A DNA stretch of 45,718 nt from a virus, in IMG/VR virus record IMGVR_UViG_3300023116_000085, positions 1-45,718 of that record; one strand, 5' to 3'. Numbering within the stretch: the stretch's first letter is position 1; each line of letters opens with the position of its first letter. This document shows, piece by piece, positions 336-35,700 of the stretch. A model generated the notes under the pieces. The model worked only from the letters and a program-made list of their open reading frames with translations. It did not search any database and was not told the DNA's origin. A program made the position numbers and the translations under genes.

Positions 336-343
336 TATTTATT
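336..343 (-). promoter_or_regulatory. Late promoter abutting a stop codon (AATAAATA)
   Basis: AATAAATA starts on the last base of the oxygenase TAA stop (343-345), forming TAAATAAATA. It lies 28 bases before the ATG of the 61-residue gene. Confidence 0.7.
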
Positions 344-927
344 TACATGTCACATAGATTGAATGAGATAGATATTCGGTTCCCCTCACAGTAATGAGGA
401 TCTACAAAATGATCTAACCAGTTTGGAAAAACGTATCCATGTCCAATTTTTGGAGTAATTCTGTGGAATACATGATGATCGTAGTATCTTCCAACTCTTG
501 TTTGAGCACGAGGATCTACAAATACTAACTGACCTTCTTTTTCTCCGAGATTTTGTGGCACATCTAAGTATAGCACACCACTAAACAAAGCAGAGGGGTG
601 GTTATGAAAAGATGAAAAGTCTCCTTTACGCATTACCATTCCCCAACAATTGATTCTGGAAATTTCTGGTGGTGGGATTGCTCTGTCTTGAGAAACAGCA
701 TGTTCCTGAATCATTGTATGAAGAAGCAACTTTAGATCTTTGGACCACTGTTCTTTTCTATTACACAAGTCATCCCTAGAATGATATCCAGTTTCCCCTC
801 TCATTGAATAAGAACGGTGCTCTTCTGGTATAGTTTCTTCTTGTAGAATATGGTTGATAATATCAAATCGAAGGGTATCAATATCTTTGATAATAAAATC
901 AGATACCCTAGTTACAAATAAATCCAT
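343..927 (-). CDS. 2OG-Fe(II) oxygenase-like protein (TIGR02466-type), copy 3
   Basis: The 194-residue product is the most typical of the three oxygenases. NCWGMVMRKGDFSSFHNHPS (His108, His110) is followed by LFSGVLYLDVP and QLVFVDPRAQ. The distal site follows with GHGYVFPNWLDHFV (His173) and NRISISFN (Arg184). These are the iron- and 2-oxoglutarate-binding positions of the family. It starts six bases after the 118-residue gene with no distinct ribosome-binding site. Its TAA stop touches the next late promoter octamer. Family members are frequent in cyanomyoviruses; substrates have not been assigned as far as I know. Confidence 0.92.
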   Translation of the reverse strand: MDLFVTRVSDFIIKDIDTLRFDIINHILQEETIPEEHRSYSMRGETGYHSRDDLCNRKEQWSKDLKLLLHTMIQEHAVSQDRAIPPPEISRINCWGMVMRKGDFSSFHNHPSALFSGVLYLDVPQNLGEKEGQLVFVDPRAQTRVGRYYDHHVFHRITPKIGHGYVFPNWLDHFVDPHYCEGNRISISFNLCDM

Positions 928-2231: not shown

Positions 2232-2882
2232 TTATTTATGTAGAGGAACTACCCTATAGGAATACTTGTCGTTATTAACAATTTCTGGCATAAAGTTCAT
2301 TGATATGGAAATTCTGCCATCTAATTGATTATCGCTGTATCCATGAGTTAGGTTAGACTGCCACAAAATCAATTCACCCTCTTCTGGAAAAACAAAAACA
2401 TCTGAGTTATATTTGTTTGGATTTGATTTATCACATTGCAGTGTGATAGTTGGGAAATGTGAATGTGTTGAATTTTCTGGATGCCTAAAACATAGTGGAG
2501 AATGTCCTTGTTTAAAGTTAACATAGTAAGTACCAGAAATATAAGCATTGCCATGAAAGTGTGGATATTGTCCACCACCTTTATCGCATAAGTTTAACCA
2601 GCTATCAGTAATAATCATATTACCACTGATATTATATCCCAAAGTATTTTTTACAAAATCCGTACAAGTTTTTTCCATCCATTCTCTGAATTCTAAGAAA
2701 CATTCTTTGTGTAAAAATGACTTATTAGTTTCATTATCAAAATGATATAAAGATGAATCCTTTGCATTCGGTTCCATCTCAGTTCCTTCCATAAGATCTA
2801 ATATAGTTTTTTTAGTTGGTTCTGATTTATCGTAAATGATTCTCCCAATTGCATTTGGGAAAATATCGAAGGTTTCAATCAT
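2232..2882 (-). CDS. 2OG-Fe(II) oxygenase-like protein (TIGR02466-type), copy 2
   Basis: The ATG at 2880-2882 overlaps the upstream TGA as ATGA, giving 216 residues; an upstream in-frame start (222 residues) would overlap by 22 bases and is less likely. Motifs: TDSWLNL, then YPHFHGNAYISGTYYV (His108, His110), LILWQSNLTHGY (His180) and GRISISMNF (Arg190). This is the double-stranded beta-helix layout of the 2-oxoglutarate oxygenases. It has an extra loop between the halves (PENSTHSHFP). The last codons with the TAA stop form the CATAAATA promoter octamer of the next unit. Its substrate is unknown. Confidence 0.88.
   Translation of the reverse strand: MIETFDIFPNAIGRIIYDKSEPTKKTILDLMEGTEMEPNAKDSSLYHFDNETNKSFLHKECFLEFREWMEKTCTDFVKNTLGYNISGNMIITDSWLNLCDKGGGQYPHFHGNAYISGTYYVNFKQGHSPLCFRHPENSTHSHFPTITLQCDKSNPNKYNSDVFVFPEEGELILWQSNLTHGYSDNQLDGRISISMNFMPEIVNNDKYSYRVVPLHK
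2233..2240 (-). promoter_or_regulatory. Late promoter on a stop codon (CATAAATA)
   Basis: CATAAATA overlaps the His-Lys codons and TAA stop of the oxygenase and lies 30 bases before the 302-residue gene. It differs from the T4 consensus only at the first base. Confidence 0.7.
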
Positions 2883-3433
2883 AATATTTTTACGTTCCAA
2901 GCAATACTAATTCTATCGTCATTTGATTTATTTTCCAATACTCTATGAAGTATGTTTGATGGAAAAATTAATACCCTTCCTTCCACTGGAGTAATAGAAA
3001 CTGATGGTGAAAGATTTGCTTCTTGAGAAACAGAACTAAGCAGATTGAAAGATTCAATATATGCTGGGTTTGTTAACTCAATGTCTCCAGAATTTTCTAA
3101 AGACTTCACATACATCACAACAGAAAGATCTGATCCTGGGTGTGTATGTCTTTCATTAAAAGTTTTTGGTGGATTGATATTTATCCACGGCATACTGAAA
3201 GCAAAATTTGATGTCAGATATTTTGAAAGACAATCTGAAATTTCTTTGTATACATCTTCAAGTAAATCAATCTGTTTGTGTTCAGATTGCCATCCTCCGA
3301 TATTTGATATTGTAACTCCTGCACTTTCTTTTTGATCTTGATAGCAATACCTAACCAATTTATTTCTATAATCTAGATAATTTTCTAGATCATGTGCGAT
3401 TAATTGAATTGGAAATAATGGGAATAGTTTCAT
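2879..3433 (-). CDS. 2OG-Fe(II) oxygenase-like protein (TIGR02466-type), copy 1
   Basis: The ATG at 3431-3433 forms an ATGA overlap with the upstream stop, giving 184 residues; an upstream in-frame ATG (195 residues) would overlap by 37 bases and adds cysteine-containing residues not expected in the family. Expected residues are present: ERHTHPGSD (His96, His98), FPSNILHRV (His163) and RISIAWN (Arg174). These fit the non-haem iron and 2-oxoglutarate sites of small phage oxygenases, which hydroxylate an unknown substrate. The copies differ greatly in sequence, so they are not recent duplicates. The stop overlaps the next gene's ATG. Confidence 0.85.
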   Translation of the reverse strand: MKLFPLFPIQLIAHDLENYLDYRNKLVRYCYQDQKESAGVTISNIGGWQSEHKQIDLLEDVYKEISDCLSKYLTSNFAFSMPWININPPKTFNERHTHPGSDLSVVMYVKSLENSGDIELTNPAYIESFNLLSSVSQEANLSPSVSITPVEGRVLIFPSNILHRVLENKSNDDRISIAWNVKIL

Positions 3434-5127
3434 TTCTTCAGTACAAAAATTACAATACCATTCCACCAGGAGTTAGAGTCTTCCAACTCATCTGTAAGAA
3501 TGATTCTCTCATACAAAATGTCTAGTTTATTTTCGGATGCAAACTCCTTTGCAGATTCTACCACATCTTTAAAATTTGCATCGTCTACAATAAGGATAAA
3601 CTCATCCTCTGTGTAATTAAGAATATGATTTAAACAAGACTTCTGGACGGATCCATCATGGTCTGCATCATAAAAAATAGTGTTGACTTTCTTATCCAAG
3701 TTTTCTTCCGTAGCAATACGAATATCACCATTTAGAATAGCGATGTTGCTGTTGTCAGTCCATGTAGTTTTGACGTTTTCAATAAACTTTTCAATAGATC
3801 CTTCTTCACCAGACCACTTGATATCATCTCTTACTGGTCTGATGTTCTTATCTTCCCAATGATCAGCAGCGTATGCAGTGAGATCGTTGCCTTGGATAGC
3901 AGCACAGAATGTACTTCCATTGTATACACCAACTTCTAGATACTTGGTGTCGTCATAGGAACAGATATTATTGAGGAAGTGCCTGACAGTATTAGATGAC
4001 AGACCTTCGATGTCATGATTAAACTTAGATTCTTTCTTTGTTGCTTTTTCTATAGAATCTAAACAACGTTGAATATATGGGTGCAACTCACGATCTTGTT
4101 TTTTAAGGTGTGCGTCAACGACAGACTCACAGTAATTACAGTCCCAGCAATCAAACTTACATGTTTTGATCTTGTCTCTCCAAATATCAATAGGACGATC
4201 TTTCATATCAAGATCTTCCATATATGGATCAAGTTGTGGGAAGAGTAGTTCTTCTTCTCTGTCCCATCTCTCAATGATATCCATAGACTCTTTCAGACGC
4301 ATCATACTCTCGCGTCCGTGCATCTTGAATACATCAATACCTAGATCAAGGAATTCTTGCCAGTCTTCTCTCCAAGGTGGAATGTTTGCTGCTTTTAATG
4401 ATACAGCAGCATCCTCATACTGCCAGGTAGAGCAAGAGACTCTACTAATAGAATCATTAAAATATTGTGGACCATCTCCACATCTTGTAGCATTGAATTG
4501 ATAATGCTCTGGCATGATAGGACAACCGCCCCAGCATCCTTCATTAGCAAGTAGAGAAAGCTTTACTGGTTTGTCAATAGAAGCACAATATTCTTTAGCA
4601 TCAATAATACGCTCTAGTTGCTCCCTATCACGCATCAGGTCTCTGTCTAGATTGACATAATGAAATCCTGCCTTGGCTGCAGCAACTACTTCATTGGGTC
4701 TAGTAACCTCGCGTAGAATAGTATTCTTAATATACAGTTCAGGAAATTCTTTCTGAATCTGTCCTGTAGATACCCATGTTGTATGTGGTAGAGTTACAAT
4801 ACGAATACCTTTATGGTATAGTGGTTTAAAGTTCTCTATCCACAAATCTAGATTTTTCTGATCTGGTCTTACCCACATATTATTGAAAGTGGCAGAAAGG
4901 GGAATTCCAGTCTGATCCGCAATCCATAAAGCATTGATAGTTGTTCCCCTTACTGGATCTTTTACAAAGATATCTCCCATCGCATCTTGACCAAATGGTT
5001 CGATGCGACATGTAAAATATAGATCATAGATCAAATCTTTATTCTTTTTCAAGAAAGGAATAAAGTGGTCTTGTGTAAACTTCCAATCAGATTTCGGGTT
5101 GATCGGTAGACTGAAGATACTTCGCAT
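3430..5127 (-). CDS. U32-peptidase-like domain fused to a class I methyltransferase
   Basis: I chose the ATG at 5125-5127 (565 residues) because AAGGA lies eight bases upstream; an ATG nine bases earlier has the same AAGG with no spacing. Residues below count from that earlier ATG. Residues ~5-340 look like a U32-family barrel: FSLPINP near the start, ANEGCWGGCP (Cys201, Cys205), GIDVFKMHGR (~266-275), which matches the U32 FKIEGR signature, and a cysteine cluster C326-x3-C330-x2-C333-x2-C336 that could hold an iron-sulfur cluster. Residues ~380-568 look like an SAM-dependent methyltransferase: YLEVGVYNGST (motif I), then IFYDADHDGS and LIVDD. Known U32 enzymes hydroxylate tRNA, rRNA or ubiquinone precursors rather than cut proteins. 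The substrate here is unknown. The stop TGA overlaps the next start as ATGA. Confidence 0.75.
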   Translation of the reverse strand: MRSIFSLPINPKSDWKFTQDHFIPFLKKNKDLIYDLYFTCRIEPFGQDAMGDIFVKDPVRGTTINALWIADQTGIPLSATFNNMWVRPDQKNLDLWIENFKPLYHKGIRIVTLPHTTWVSTGQIQKEFPELYIKNTILREVTRPNEVVAAAKAGFHYVNLDRDLMRDREQLERIIDAKEYCASIDKPVKLSLLANEGCWGGCPIMPEHYQFNATRCGDGPQYFNDSISRVSCSTWQYEDAAVSLKAANIPPWREDWQEFLDLGIDVFKMHGRESMMRLKESMDIIERWDREEELLFPQLDPYMEDLDMKDRPIDIWRDKIKTCKFDCWDCNYCESVVDAHLKKQDRELHPYIQRCLDSIEKATKKESKFNHDIEGLSSNTVRHFLNNICSYDDTKYLEVGVYNGSTFCAAIQGNDLTAYAADHWEDKNIRPVRDDIKWSGEEGSIEKFIENVKTTWTDNSNIAILNGDIRIATEENLDKKVNTIFYDADHDGSVQKSCLNHILNYTEDEFILIVDDANFKDVVESAKEFASENKLDILYERIILTDELEDSNSWWNGIVIFVLKK

Positions 5128-5842
5128 TAATTTCATCCTTAATTTGATCTAGTAGAGGTACGTTCATTGTTTCCTCAATTCCGTGGAATGTAGGAATGTT
5201 TACATCAGGAGACTCTGCATATGCCTTGAAGTATTTTTCCGTTCTTCCAGTAATCTTATCCATGGAAAGTTTCATAAGACATGAATACTGGGAAGCGACA
5301 TCGAGGATTGCAATCTGATCTTCTTGCTTCATCATAGCAATAGAATCTAAATTACCAGTACCTACTCTACCATGAGCCATAAGATCTAAAGCAGCTTGTT
5401 TGCCCATTCTAGCAATCCAATACTTTCTTTCTTCCTCTTCATTCCACTCTGATGCTTTTTCAAGTTCTTCTTTAGTGGTAATATGTTTTTGAATATGTTC
5501 CACAAAAACATTTAGTTCATAAGATAACTGGGACTTTCTTCTTTCCCACATCTCTAGATCTAACTTGGCATCATCTACTTCAATCTCCGCTTCTTCTTTT
5601 TCAAAAGCGGTTTCTGCATTATCTAATCTATCTTGAGCAATCTTAACGGCGAGAGCACTTCTTCTCTCACCAATTTTCATTTTCTCAAAGTTATGCAATC
5701 TATTTTCAATTTCAAGCATAACCTGTTTTAGTTGCCTATCTCCAGTTACATGAGACTTAATTACATAGTCATCTATTTGATTTTTTGACATGCCAATAGC
5801 AACCTTTTTGGCAAGTTCAAATATTTCTTCTGTTGTGATCAT
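5087..5842 (-). CDS. Unrecognised 251-residue coiled-coil protein
   Basis: Residues ~30-130 are strongly charged and helical with heptad-like spacing (AVKIAQDRLDNAETAFEKEE, then LDLEMWERRKSQLSYEL), indicating a long coiled coil. The following segment KYWIARMGKQAALDLMAHGR and TGNLDSIAMM looks like a small globular helical domain. It starts 21 bases after the previous gene with a weak ribosome-binding site and no promoter motif. Its 3' end overlaps the next gene by 41 bases. It may be an assembly chaperone or scaffold for the neighbouring adhesin; I recall no named family. Confidence 0.7.
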   Translation of the reverse strand: MITTEEIFELAKKVAIGMSKNQIDDYVIKSHVTGDRQLKQVMLEIENRLHNFEKMKIGERRSALAVKIAQDRLDNAETAFEKEEAEIEVDDAKLDLEMWERRKSQLSYELNVFVEHIQKHITTKEELEKASEWNEEEERKYWIARMGKQAALDLMAHGRVGTGNLDSIAMMKQEDQIAILDVASQYSCLMKLSMDKITGRTEKYFKAYAESPDVNIPTFHGIEETMNVPLLDQIKDEINAKYLQSTDQPEI

Positions 5843-7777: not shown

Positions 7778-7785
7778 TATTTAGA
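7778..7785 (-). promoter_or_regulatory. Late promoter-like octamer on the fibre stop codon (TCTAAATA)
   Basis: TCTAAATA contains the TAA stop (7781-7783) of the 2,902-residue gene and lies 25 bases before the 380-residue gene. It is a C variant of the T4 motif. The conserved position supports it. Confidence 0.55.
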
Positions 7786-16524: not shown

Positions 16525-16532
16525 TATTTAGC
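16525..16532 (-). promoter_or_regulatory. Late promoter-like octamer before the 2,902-residue fibre gene (GCTAAATA)
   Basis: GCTAAATA begins one base after the upstream TAA stop and lies 35 bases before the start. A purine-rich GGCGGAG lies between, about 13 bases before the ATG. It has C at the second position instead of the T4-consensus A. Confidence 0.5.
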
Positions 16533-30780: not shown

Positions 30781-30806
30781 AATACTAGTATCTAGTCCCT
30801 AGTATT
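30781..30806. repeat. 8-bp inverted repeat in the leader of the DUF4815 gene
   Basis: AATACTAG (30781-30788) is the exact inverse of CTAGTATT (30799-30806), with a 10-base loop. One arm overlaps the late promoter-like octamer; the other lies just before the GGAG ribosome-binding site at about -5. A folded RNA could affect translation start, or the palindrome could bind a regulator. Confidence 0.45.
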
Positions 30807-30810
30807 TAGT
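30803..30810 (-). promoter_or_regulatory. Late promoter-like octamer before the DUF4815 gene (ACTAAATA)
   Basis: ACTAAATA lies directly downstream of the gp8 terminator and 34 bases before the next start codon. It carries C at the second position, as do the motifs at 16525-16532 and 7778-7785. Position supports it more than the sequence does. Confidence 0.5.
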
Positions 30811-32739: not shown

Positions 32740-32746
32740 CAGTTAT

Positions 32747-35700
32747 TTAGTCAATTGTAAATGGAAGTACCTCATCGCCAGTTGATGGGAAACCATCGCC
32801 TCTAATCTTATTCACACCAGTGAATGACGTAGAAGTAATACCAGTGTATTCAAAGACCGAAATAGTACCAGAATACGTTCCACTATTCATTTTGATCATA
32901 ATGTGTCCAGTAGTTGGGAAGTAACTGGTACTATTGACATCCAATTCACCATTGATATCAAGACCACTAGATGTGATGCAAACTGGGTTTTGAATTGATG
33001 GAGGCAAGAGATTAAACTTATCACCCGCAAGTGTATAACTTGAAGATGCTCTTTCTGTAAAATCCCTGACAGTTAATGATGGGAAGTATGTATCAAGTTC
33101 TTCAATGGTTAATCCAGAAACATTTGCAGATCCATCATCAAAAATTCCATCAAAATGACTAATTGTATGTCCCGCATTGGTTCTTTCATAATTTCCAATA
33201 TATTCTGATGATGTACCAAATACAGCGTTAGAAACAAAAATTGTTGTAGTATCACGCTTGATAACTCCATACGAATTATCAAGATCAACAAATCCATTGA
33301 GTCTAGTTCCAATTGGGTCACTAATGAACACACTTTCCTCATAACCATCTACTGCTCCAGATGGAGGAGTAAAGAGAAGAACTTCTAACTGATTCTTCTG
33401 AATTATAAATTCGCTTTGTACTGTTTGAACCTCACATCTTACTGTAGTTGATGCTTCTTGTACTGTAGCAACTGGAGTAATATCAAATGGAACTTCCAAT
33501 TTATAGAATACTCTAGCAACAATTGTTGAAATAGATTCAACATTAAGTTGTGGTTGAATCTCTGCTGTTAATACTCTAGAACTAGTTGTTAGGGATACTG
33601 TGGGAGATTGTACTTGCTGATATCTTACTCTATCCTGACCAGTTCCAGCAACACCAGATGCTGCTTGAACTGTAGAGATACTAGATGCCGACTCAACCTT
33701 AGCAACACCACCGTATGCTACAGATACTGGATCTGGGATTTGTCTGATAAATGTTCCTGCTGTCCAAGATTTAGCAGTAGTTCCCTGCTGTCCTCTTTGA
33801 ACCATTAAGAATCTATCAGATAGTTTACGTAGATATCTTACAACTTCATCGCCAATCAACAAATAACCATTTGTTTTGAATTTGCTTGTATCTGCAATGT
33901 AAATAATGGTATCAGTTGGATCCGCATCAACATCAAGATATGCACCAGTCTGATAGTAATTAACATTAGATAGAGCATCATTCTGTAGTTGAATATTGAC
34001 AGTGTTGGTGAACTGTCTATTTGCCGTAACAACAGAATTTGAAATTACATCAGACAAACGACCAGAAACTTGAGATACATATTGATTTGTTGATGCAAAT
34101 ACGTCAATAATAACAAACTTATCTGGATTTGGTCTGCTAGAACGAATTTCTGATGTAGAAGTAGAGAGGTCTTCTCCAGTATTTTCAATCAATTGAATTT
34201 CAGATTCAATATCAGTTCCAACAGCAACTGGACTTGTTGCAAACTGTGCGGTGATAGAAATAATCTGATCTGCGGCAGGTAGTCTGATAATATCAATACT
34301 AGACTGTGCAATTAAACTGAATTGGTTAACATATGGATTGACACCAAGATTGATTAGTGAAACTCCAATATCTCTATCAGATAGAATATCATATCTTCTA
34401 GCAACCTCTACTCTTGGTGCTTTTGTATAACCAGAACCACCTTCAATTAGATCGACACTAATTACTTGACCCTTACTTACAAGAACGTTTGCTCTTGCAC
34501 CGCCACCATTGCCATCTAAAGGAATAAAGTGGAGAACTGGAGGAGTGTAATACTGATATGCAGTTGGTTGAGTTAATGGTTCATAACTACGCTGATTCCA
34601 CTCTAAACCTACAACAGAACCATTTTCGATGATTGCAACAACTGATAATCCTTCTCCTCTAGTGATACCATTATATCTTTCAACATCAACAGATCCGAAC
34701 AGGGATGACGAAACCTCTTCCCTTGGTCTCTGCTCTTTGCTGGTGGTGGTTCCAGGCAACTTCTTGATTCTTCTGAAATTTTCTTCGCCTTCTACTCTAA
34801 TGTTATCTCCATTGGATAGACTTAAGAATGGATTTCTATAAGTTTTTCCTAAGAATGTTCCAGACCAGATTTGATTATTATCAGAAAGAATCAGTCTTCC
34901 AAATTCATCTTCTGCGTAAGTAATAGTATAATCTGAAATTGATATTGTTGTATTACGAGCATAATCTCCCTTAACAGCAAAAACAATAGGTTTAGATGTA
35001 TCAAGAATACACTTAGATCCAAATACAGCAAATGCAATTTGTGTTGCATATGTAGCAATATTTGATAGTTCTCCTAGTACATTATAAGTATTGTCATCAT
35101 TGACTTGCCATGCATGGATTGGAGATCCAATTTTATCACCCATCCAAGCAAAAGTTTCAAAAGTTGATAGACCAGAAGTAACATCTAATACAACTGATGC
35201 TTTTGCATAGTATTGATTTGGAGCAAAGTCGTAAATATTAAGAACCTGACCGACATCTCTACCATAGAGATATCTCATGTCAATCTTCATTTCCTTTTTA
35301 ATAGGAACATTGAAGTATATGTTTGGACCAGAAATTGTATAACTATATCCTTCTCTCTGTAGGACGCCATCTAGGAAGACATATAAGAACTCTTTGTCTT
35401 CAATACTTTGTACAGTACCGTCTTCTACATCAAGAATCAGAAATGGACCAGTCCTAGAACCATCAACTAAATTCTTATCAATTGTTAATCTCTTATAGTT
35501 ACCAACACCAATACCAACAACTTTTTCAACCGCAGTTGGTTCGCCAATGCTCTTAGCACCAAAATCTTGATCCCAGATAGGAGCAACATCAAATACTAAT
35601 TTGTTTGGAATTGTAGTTCTATCAATGTAGTAAGAATCTTCGCCAGGATAGTCTGCATTATACTTTGGACGTTGAAGTACAGCATTGATAGTCAAGAAGA

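Follow-up and report, generated by a model that had tools for sequence, protein, structure and literature searches.

UbiU and UbiV act as a pair in hydroxylation during ubiquinone synthesis, alongside separate methyltransferases, and TrmR converts 5-hydroxyuridine (ho5U) to 5-methoxyuridine (mo5U). Together with TrhP and RlhA, UbiU/UbiV (PF01136) belong to the U32 oxidases, an established class (excerpts of PMC11574389). TrhP and RlhA need prephenate, and residues E162, C170 and C177 of TrhP are essential in vivo (excerpts of PMC6599085). The cluster motif CX6CX15CX3/4C is typical of most U32 families, and not every family keeps the four cysteines (excerpts of PMC6747719). A hydroxylase and an O-methyltransferase on one chain are known from the TrhO-TrmR fusion of three eukaryotic microbes, including Phytophthora and Phaeodactylum (excerpts of PMC6599085); its hydroxylase half is rhodanese-type and O2-dependent, and not a U32-type iron-sulfur barrel. 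Here we describe a gene on the IMG/VR record IMGVR_UViG_3300023116_000085, a T4-like cyanophage record of 45,718 bases that was analyzed as a whole (hereafter the window), in which a divergent U32-like barrel is joined to an O-methyltransferase-type domain.

The fusion open reading frame (ORF) lies on the minus strand and runs from an ATG at 5127 to 3430, encoding 565 amino acids plus stop; an alternative in-frame ATG at 5136 would give 568. Residues are numbered according to the 565-amino acid form throughout. A TIM-barrel (residues 1–345) and a class I methyltransferase (approximately 366–565) are laid out on a single chain. The original prediction for this DNA, a fusion of a U32-like domain with a methyltransferase dependent on S-adenosylmethionine (SAM), quoted the motifs GIDVFKMHGR, YLEVGVYNGST and FYDADHDGS and a C-x3-C-x2-C-x2-C cluster (here CKFDCWDCNYC), all of which are present in the ORF; its Cys201 and Cys205 are C198 and C202 in our numbering. 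The features of the gene are:

3430..5127, minus strand: fusion gene, U32-like barrel with C-terminal Cys4 motif and O-methyltransferase-type domain; PHROG_1458 / T4-GC 354 (ORF, PHROG match, tblastn)
4093..5127, minus strand: N-terminal domain, residues 1–345, (beta/alpha)8-type barrel assigned to the U32 superfamily, plus Cys4 tail (fold model, 5d88 match, stepwise homology)
4585..4587, minus strand: Cys181, invariant in phages (86/86 distinct rows), absent from cellular relatives (alignment)
4432..4536, minus strand: barrel cysteine loop C198-x3-C202-P...E207-H208...C232, its three Cys also present in aligned cellular relatives (alignment)
4312..4326, minus strand: K268-x2-G271-R272 (KMHGR), counterpart of KIEGR in TrhP, UbiU and RlhA (alignment)
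4129..4161, minus strand: C323-x3-C327-x2-C330-x2-C333, candidate second [4Fe-4S] (or Zn) site (alignment; motif in 39/43 cellular relatives)
3433..4032, minus strand: SAM-dependent methyltransferase domain, residues 366–565, cation-dependent O-methyltransferase type (Methyltransf_24, fold comparison)
3580..3669, minus strand: invariant Asp triad D487 (3667–3669) and D515-D516 (3580–3585), candidate divalent-metal site (84/84 rows with a letter)

The fusion is a conserved cyanophage family. A tblastn search of INPHARED identified it at full length in 123 of 50,697 records, all of them from Synechococcus or Prochlorococcus phages and none with less than 80% query coverage. When the first 367 residues alone were used (E up to 10), 152 records were found, 123 with at least 80% coverage and 29 with weak partial matches; the methyltransferase half alone matched 123 records, 121 of them over at least 80%. 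The organism breakdown was identical for the strong matches of both halves (counts compared, not record by record), and neither half was found on its own among the INPHARED records. In IMG/VR, 529 candidate stretches encode relatives, the best 80 of which were kept for analysis. The mean pairwise identity among 35 sequences was 71% for the N-terminal domain (minimum 65%) versus 49% for the methyltransferase (minimum 34%). That the ORF arose from read-through by chance, or from an error of sequencing or annotation, can be practically dismissed: besides the 123 INPHARED records, at least 80 environmental contigs carry the full-length fusion, and the 34 translated relatives contain no internal stop; no point in favor of such an origin was found.

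The family is identical to PHROG_1458 (E 7e-240, residues 50–565, profile positions 1–519 of 519) and to T4-GC 354 of the Syn33, Syn19, P-HM2, P-SSM4 and S-BM1 records, to which no function is assigned and which is annotated as hypothetical in those records that were read. Residues 5–343 are matched by PHROG_36869 as well (E 4e-74), and therefore a phage entry with the N-terminal domain only may exist, although none was found in INPHARED. In S-RSM4 the gene is absent from the matching interval. No relatives were found in a plasmid search. A scan of genome contigs gave only two close copies, on contigs of metagenome-assembled genomes (MAGs) labelled Dehalococcoidia and Euryarchaeota; we interpret these as phage sequence that was assigned to the MAGs during binning, and they served as entry points for a hidden Markov model search of whole genomes. 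Several public gene models of the family are truncated by approximately 40–50 residues, beginning with the Met of QDAMGD or slightly ahead of it (P-SSM4, locus L184 9127; S-RIM14, L186 7148; also L250, L251, L252, L254, L256 and L259). Two barrel strands lie in the omitted stretch, which is conserved; the PHROG_1458 profile likewise starts only at residue 50. In P-SSM3 the locus is not covered by any gene model, while the models of Syn33, Syn19 and P-HM2 include the N-terminal stretch.

The first domain could be linked to the U32 superfamily by stepwise homology. A profile of the phage proteins identified three cellular relatives in 201 Chloroflexota genomes (E 2e-24 to 4e-27), a fourth match being a phage-like contig, and a profile of phage and Dehalococcoidia proteins identified relatives in nine of 292 Thermoplasmatota genomes besides a phage-like contig (E 3e-12 to 0.009). 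All five archaeal relatives tested scored over the PF01136 cut-off (E 2e-9 to 1e-11) and three out of three matched the TrhP model, and a combined profile of the phage proteins and their relatives (A5) matched canonical U32 with an E of 4.7e-11. In the reverse direction, profiles built separately from the dehalogenase-linked clade described below, from archaea only and from other Dehalococcoidia proteins only each recovered 14/14 phage proteins from 274 ORFs (E up to 5e-8), with the best unrelated ORF at E 0.11, 0.23 and 0.54, respectively. With a profile of E. coli UbiU, UbiV, TrhP and RlhA and two Chloroflexota U32 proteins, 22 cellular family members outranked all others among 572 ORFs; this profile barely reaches the phage proteins. 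Structural comparison of the N-terminal domain alone with VIA-align placed the U32 protein Mk0906 (5d88) first of the 50 entries shown (Z 14.4, 216 aligned residues, root-mean-square deviation 3.9). Based on these sequence links, the first domain shares descent with PF01136 members through intermediates, and we place it in the U32 superfamily, but not among the canonical oxidases, because its cysteine spacing differs from CX6CX15CX3/4C and the column of TrhP E162 is occupied by Ser.

Like TrhP, RlhA and UbiU/UbiV, the phage protein has the barrel fold, cysteines in the loop after the equivalent barrel strand and a K-x2-G-R motif beyond the cysteine region. It differs from these enzymes in its lack of a direct Pfam match, its C-x3-C + C spacing, the absence of Glu at the E162 column, the additional C-terminal Cys4 motif and the fused methyltransferase. 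Other assignments were considered and rejected. MTHFR, which ranked first in Foldseek, was set aside as the true relative of the barrel on the chain of sequence homology. A radical SAM enzyme was rejected since there is no PF04055 match and the CX3CX2C lies beyond the barrel (C323–C330) and not after the first strand. A match to XRCC4 was dismissed (17.4 bits, below the cut-off of 26.2), and matches of the N-terminal domain to a Klebsiella phage 'peptidase' were dropped (E about 3).

Eight cysteines, C181, C198, C202, C232, C323, C327, C330 and C333, are invariant in 86/86 distinct phage rows. The pattern used to extract the rows demanded C198, C202 and P203; the sole locus missed by it, S-CAM4 (read by eye), carries P203S and keeps all eight. 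Judged from the alignment, these would be enough for two [4Fe-4S] clusters. An alignment of 13 rows that includes cellular relatives shows no variation at C198, C202, C232 and the four C-terminal cysteines, nor at R41, N82, H208, K268 and R272, and the motif Cx3-4Cx2Cx2C is present at the C-terminus in 39 of 43 cellular genes (at least one of the other four is cut by a contig end). Invariant polar residues of the N-terminal domain in the phages are N82, E196, H208, K268 and R272. The cluster cysteines named in the original prediction are thus kept in relatives, and the barrel did not turn out to be of a non-U32 family, with the caution that Foldseek alone puts MTHFR above the U32 structure.

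The second domain matches Pfam Methyltransf_24 (30.5 bits against a cut-off of 26.3, E 7e-7), and a sequence-profile search against the PDB gave no relevant match for this half. In a fold comparison with the whole model, MeT1 (Z 16.0), MycF (15.7), Rv0187 (15.6), TomG (15.5) and TrmR (15.0) all scored within approximately 1 Z unit; identities were 9–19% in the structural alignments listed, TrmR having the highest among those rows (18–19% over the aligned part). Residues D487, D515 and D516 are invariant in 84/84 rows with a letter and are candidate ligands of a divalent metal, as would fit a cation-dependent O-methyltransferase of the TrmR or MycF type. The domain therewith resembles the cation-dependent O-methyltransferases, TrmR included: it has the class I fold and the SAM motif in common with TrmR, MycF, MeT1 and COMT-type enzymes, its invariant Asp triad would make a similar metal site, and it differs from them by its fusion to a predicted iron-sulfur barrel and its low identity. 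This agrees with the methyltransferase originally proposed, and specifies it as O-methyltransferase type. Profile searches thus identified the second half directly (Methyltransf_24) but not the first, which has no PF01136 match by itself and for which the U32-like character is carried by the stepwise homology and by 5d88 as best VIA-align match.

The window encodes baseplate, tail and fibre genes (gp25, gp6 and gp8 families), and all its large genes are on the minus strand. The fusion ORF shares bases with both neighbours: its start with the end of the upstream gene, and its end with the start of a downstream 2-oxoglutarate- and Fe(II)-dependent (2OG-Fe(II)) oxygenase gene. The neighbouring features are:

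5087..5842, minus strand: upstream gene, PHROG_1409, no function assigned, homologue in 70/80 viral loci (PHROG match, locus comparison)
2879..3466, minus strand: next gene, 2OG-Fe(II) oxygenase (PF13759, E 4e-19), overlapping the end of the fusion gene (Pfam)
2232..2900, minus strand: second 2OG-Fe(II) oxygenase (PF13759) (Pfam)
343..927, minus strand: third 2OG-Fe(II) oxygenase (PF13759) (Pfam)

In the 80 environmental loci used for viral context, many of which are cut short, the neighbours include homologues of the upstream gene (PHROG_1409, 70 loci), PHROG_1604 (61), PHROG_1417 (51) and the PF13759 oxygenase g4 (56). The operon to which the fusion gene belongs is a late one for tail and baseplate, and it also encodes 2OG-Fe(II) oxygenases. 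The sequence CTAAATA, which we take to be the T4-type late promoter, has seven matches in the window, all on the coding strand, but chance alone would give 10.2, so that the matches lend weak support to late expression; the four sites at 7778–7784, 16525–16531, 30803–30809 and 32744–32750 are within approximately 60 bases upstream of gene starts. In P-SSM4, Syn33 and Syn19, the gene after the fusion is labelled 'denV / DNA endonuclease V' (phrog_274). This label seems doubtful, because the P-SSM4 protein (L184 10689–11198) has no Pfam match and the PF13759 oxygenase at 2879–3466 of the window matches phrog_274 (1.7e-6).

Cellular context was derived from 43 genes of Dehalococcoidia and Thermoplasmatota, with three genes available on both sides for only 24 of them. 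Near these relatives we found FabG (13), AMP-forming ligases (9), reductive dehalogenases (6), radical SAM proteins (5), Methyltransf_2 O-methyltransferases (3) and, within three genes, DAHP synthase (3, in two subclades). The cellular proteins share with the phage protein the barrel C-x3-C-P...H...C and the C-terminal Cx3-4Cx2Cx2C; unlike it, they are single-domain and lack C181, and a methyltransferase, if present, is separate and of another family (Methyltransf_2). In the phylogenetic tree, the phage clade is sister to a six-gene dehalogenase-linked Dehalococcoidia clade (100/100), in which dehalogenases are near 6/6 genes and, in 3/6 loci, a Methyltransf_2 O-methyltransferase is the immediate same-strand neighbour of the U32-like gene. 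This methyltransferase has no significant sequence similarity to that of the phage (best blastp E 0.026), and its adjacency couples O-methylation to a U32-like protein for a second time, separately from the phage fusion. DAHP synthase catalyzes the first step towards prephenate; its occurrence near the relatives, noticed after the fact, fits with prephenate use.

Three Dehalococcoidia operons (L188 8449–12262, L189 5381–9179 and L230 2681–9756) encode, head-to-tail, a reductive dehalogenase with a twin-arginine translocation (TAT) signal, a Methyltransf_2 O-methyltransferase and the U32-like protein. In Thermoplasmatota (L190, L191, L273 and L274) the U32-like gene is beside a radical SAM/SPASM peptide-maturase-like gene, which makes a peptide-modification locus possible, and in L190 and L191 a metallo-beta-lactamase-fold gene overlaps it. 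Other Dehalococcoidia genes of the family (L240, L241, L245 and L247) are near products resembling ribosomal proteins and EF-G; those of L240, L241 and L245 also adjoin FabG/FabF-like genes.

We propose that the barrel is a divergent iron-sulfur protein of the U32 superfamily with two clusters: a [4Fe-4S] cluster of the active site, for which C181, C198, C202 and C232 would be the ligands, and a second, probably electron-relaying one on the C-terminal C-x3-C-x2-C-x2-C. By analogy to the known U32 oxidases, the barrel would hydroxylate its substrate independently of O2, probably taking the oxygen from prephenate, after which the fused class I domain would pass a methyl group from SAM to the new oxygen, with a divalent metal on D487, D515 and D516. 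A methoxylated target, made late in infection, would result. The analysis establishes the fusion, its conservation, the families of both domains and the invariance of the cysteines, and from these we infer cluster binding, hydroxylation, the order of the two reactions, the metal and the substrate. For this two-step chemistry, hydroxylation by the barrel followed by O-methylation by the fused domain, we judge the chances to be even. Given its position within a late tail/baseplate operon and amid 2OG-Fe(II) oxygenases, the enzyme is more likely to act on a phage product made late (a virion protein, or its glycan), or on a small molecule or lipid, than on host tRNA; a virion protein or glycan is favoured as substrate, followed by a small molecule or lipid, with tRNA last. 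To our knowledge, methoxylation of a virion component, as a modification of protein or glycan, is not known in phages. The complete scheme, in which a two-cluster branch of U32-type oxidases fused to an O-methyltransferase performs single-chain, O2-independent methoxylation of a virion component late in infection, is offered tentatively and is unlikely to hold in all its parts.

A number of observations weigh against a U32-type hydroxylase coupled to methylation. The phage protein does not match PF01136 at the gathering score, its Pfam, NCBIfam and PDB-sequence searches gave no U32 match, the Dehalococcoidia relatives L089, L090 and L091 likewise have no PF01136 match, and a phage-only profile aligned to canonical U32 with a non-significant probability of 1.6%. 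In VIA-align, MTHFR (Z 13.6) is within 1 Z unit of 5d88, a tie by the rule of the tool, and Foldseek ranked MTHFR barrels above the U32 structure; the fold by itself therefore does not decide the family. The spacing C198-x3-C202-x29-C232 plus C181 replaces CX6CX15CX3C, and the TrhP E162 column is Ser in 9/9 phage rows, where 5/5 archaeal rows and UbiU, UbiV, TrhP and RlhA have Glu. C40, considered as a fourth ligand like C39 of UbiV, was at first invariant in 35/35 rows and proved to be T or S in 11/85 of a larger set, which weakens its candidacy; because C40 varies, C181 is the better candidate in the phages, and this residue is phage-only and not kept in cellular relatives. The cysteine region of the predicted model has a predicted local distance difference test (pLDDT) score below 50, so that the cluster geometry is open to doubt. 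As to the neighbourhoods, the O-methyltransferase is limited to one small clade (3/43 cellular genes), DAHP synthase is near only 3/43, and the counts for both were made post hoc.

Some of these observations suit a barrel that is not a hydroxylase, its U32 fold and cluster being kept for electron supply, substrate binding or dehydration, so that only the methyltransferase modifies the target. The loss of the essential Glu and of the canonical cysteine spacing would be explained, and the four cysteines are not kept in all U32 families (excerpts of PMC6747719). Against this, the N-terminal domain is the more conserved half (71% versus 49%), and its invariant polar residues and cysteines suit an active site; we consider this reading unlikely. 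Somewhat less unlikely is an enzyme for a small molecule or lipid, which would hydroxylate and O-methylate a metabolite, much like UbiU/UbiV in concert with their separate methyltransferases, or finish a host cofactor or glycan precursor. Structurally, the methyltransferase half comes closest to enzymes of sugars and natural products (MeT1, MycF, TomG, SpnH and NovP), and the FabG (13/43), AMP-forming ligase (9/43), Methyltransf_2 (3/43) and DAHP synthase (3/43) neighbours of the cellular relatives point in the same direction. On the other hand, the operon of the phage gene is structural rather than metabolic, and UbiU and UbiV work as a pair, while no second U32 gene was seen in the window.

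The original prediction compared the fusion to tRNA wobble uridine modification and allowed for other substrates. Spelled out for this protein, the U32-like half would make ho5U34 with prephenate and the TrmR-like half would convert it to mo5U, which would let the phage adjust decoding. In favor of this, TrhP is itself a U32 protein that depends on prephenate, TrmR methylates ho5U34 and is among the fold neighbours, with the highest identity of the listed rows, and the TrhO-TrmR fusion is a precedent (excerpts of PMC6599085). Yet the fold comparison does not separate TrmR from O-methyltransferases of small molecules and sugars, and the Peptidase_U32_C domain (PF16325) present in E. coli TrhP is absent from the phage protein, as are the canonical CX6CX15CX3C and the Glu essential in TrhP, so that it is not a TrhP orthologue. 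A tRNA target is also disfavored by the late tail/baseplate operon and by relatives that are found near reductive dehalogenases, O-methyltransferases, FabG/acyl-ligase genes, DAHP synthase and radical SAM maturases; their labelled neighbours include no tRNA enzyme, in a comparison that was not a systematic search for tRNA genes or enzymes. Hydroxylation followed by methylation stands as the best reading, but nothing points to tRNA, and we regard modification of the wobble position as distinctly improbable.

Searches of the open PubMed Central (PMC) literature retrieved no paper pairing peptidase U32 with cyanophage, none on the accessions of the family, and no phage protein in which a U32-type barrel carries an additional Cys4 site and is joined to an O-methyltransferase. 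A hydroxylase-O-methyltransferase fusion (TrhO-TrmR) and the U32 oxidases are already known. With the present reading, a family of 123 sequenced phage records and hundreds of environmental contigs, to which no function was attached, acquires a candidate activity. The fusion links a U32-like enzyme directly to O-methylation, provides a handle on the U32 branch of the 43 Dehalococcoidia and Thermoplasmatota genes and makes the use of prephenate by U32 proteins testable in another system. If the proposed methoxylation by hydroxylation and methyl transfer is true, these phages would possess a hydroxylase that needs no oxygen, joined to a methyltransferase of its own.

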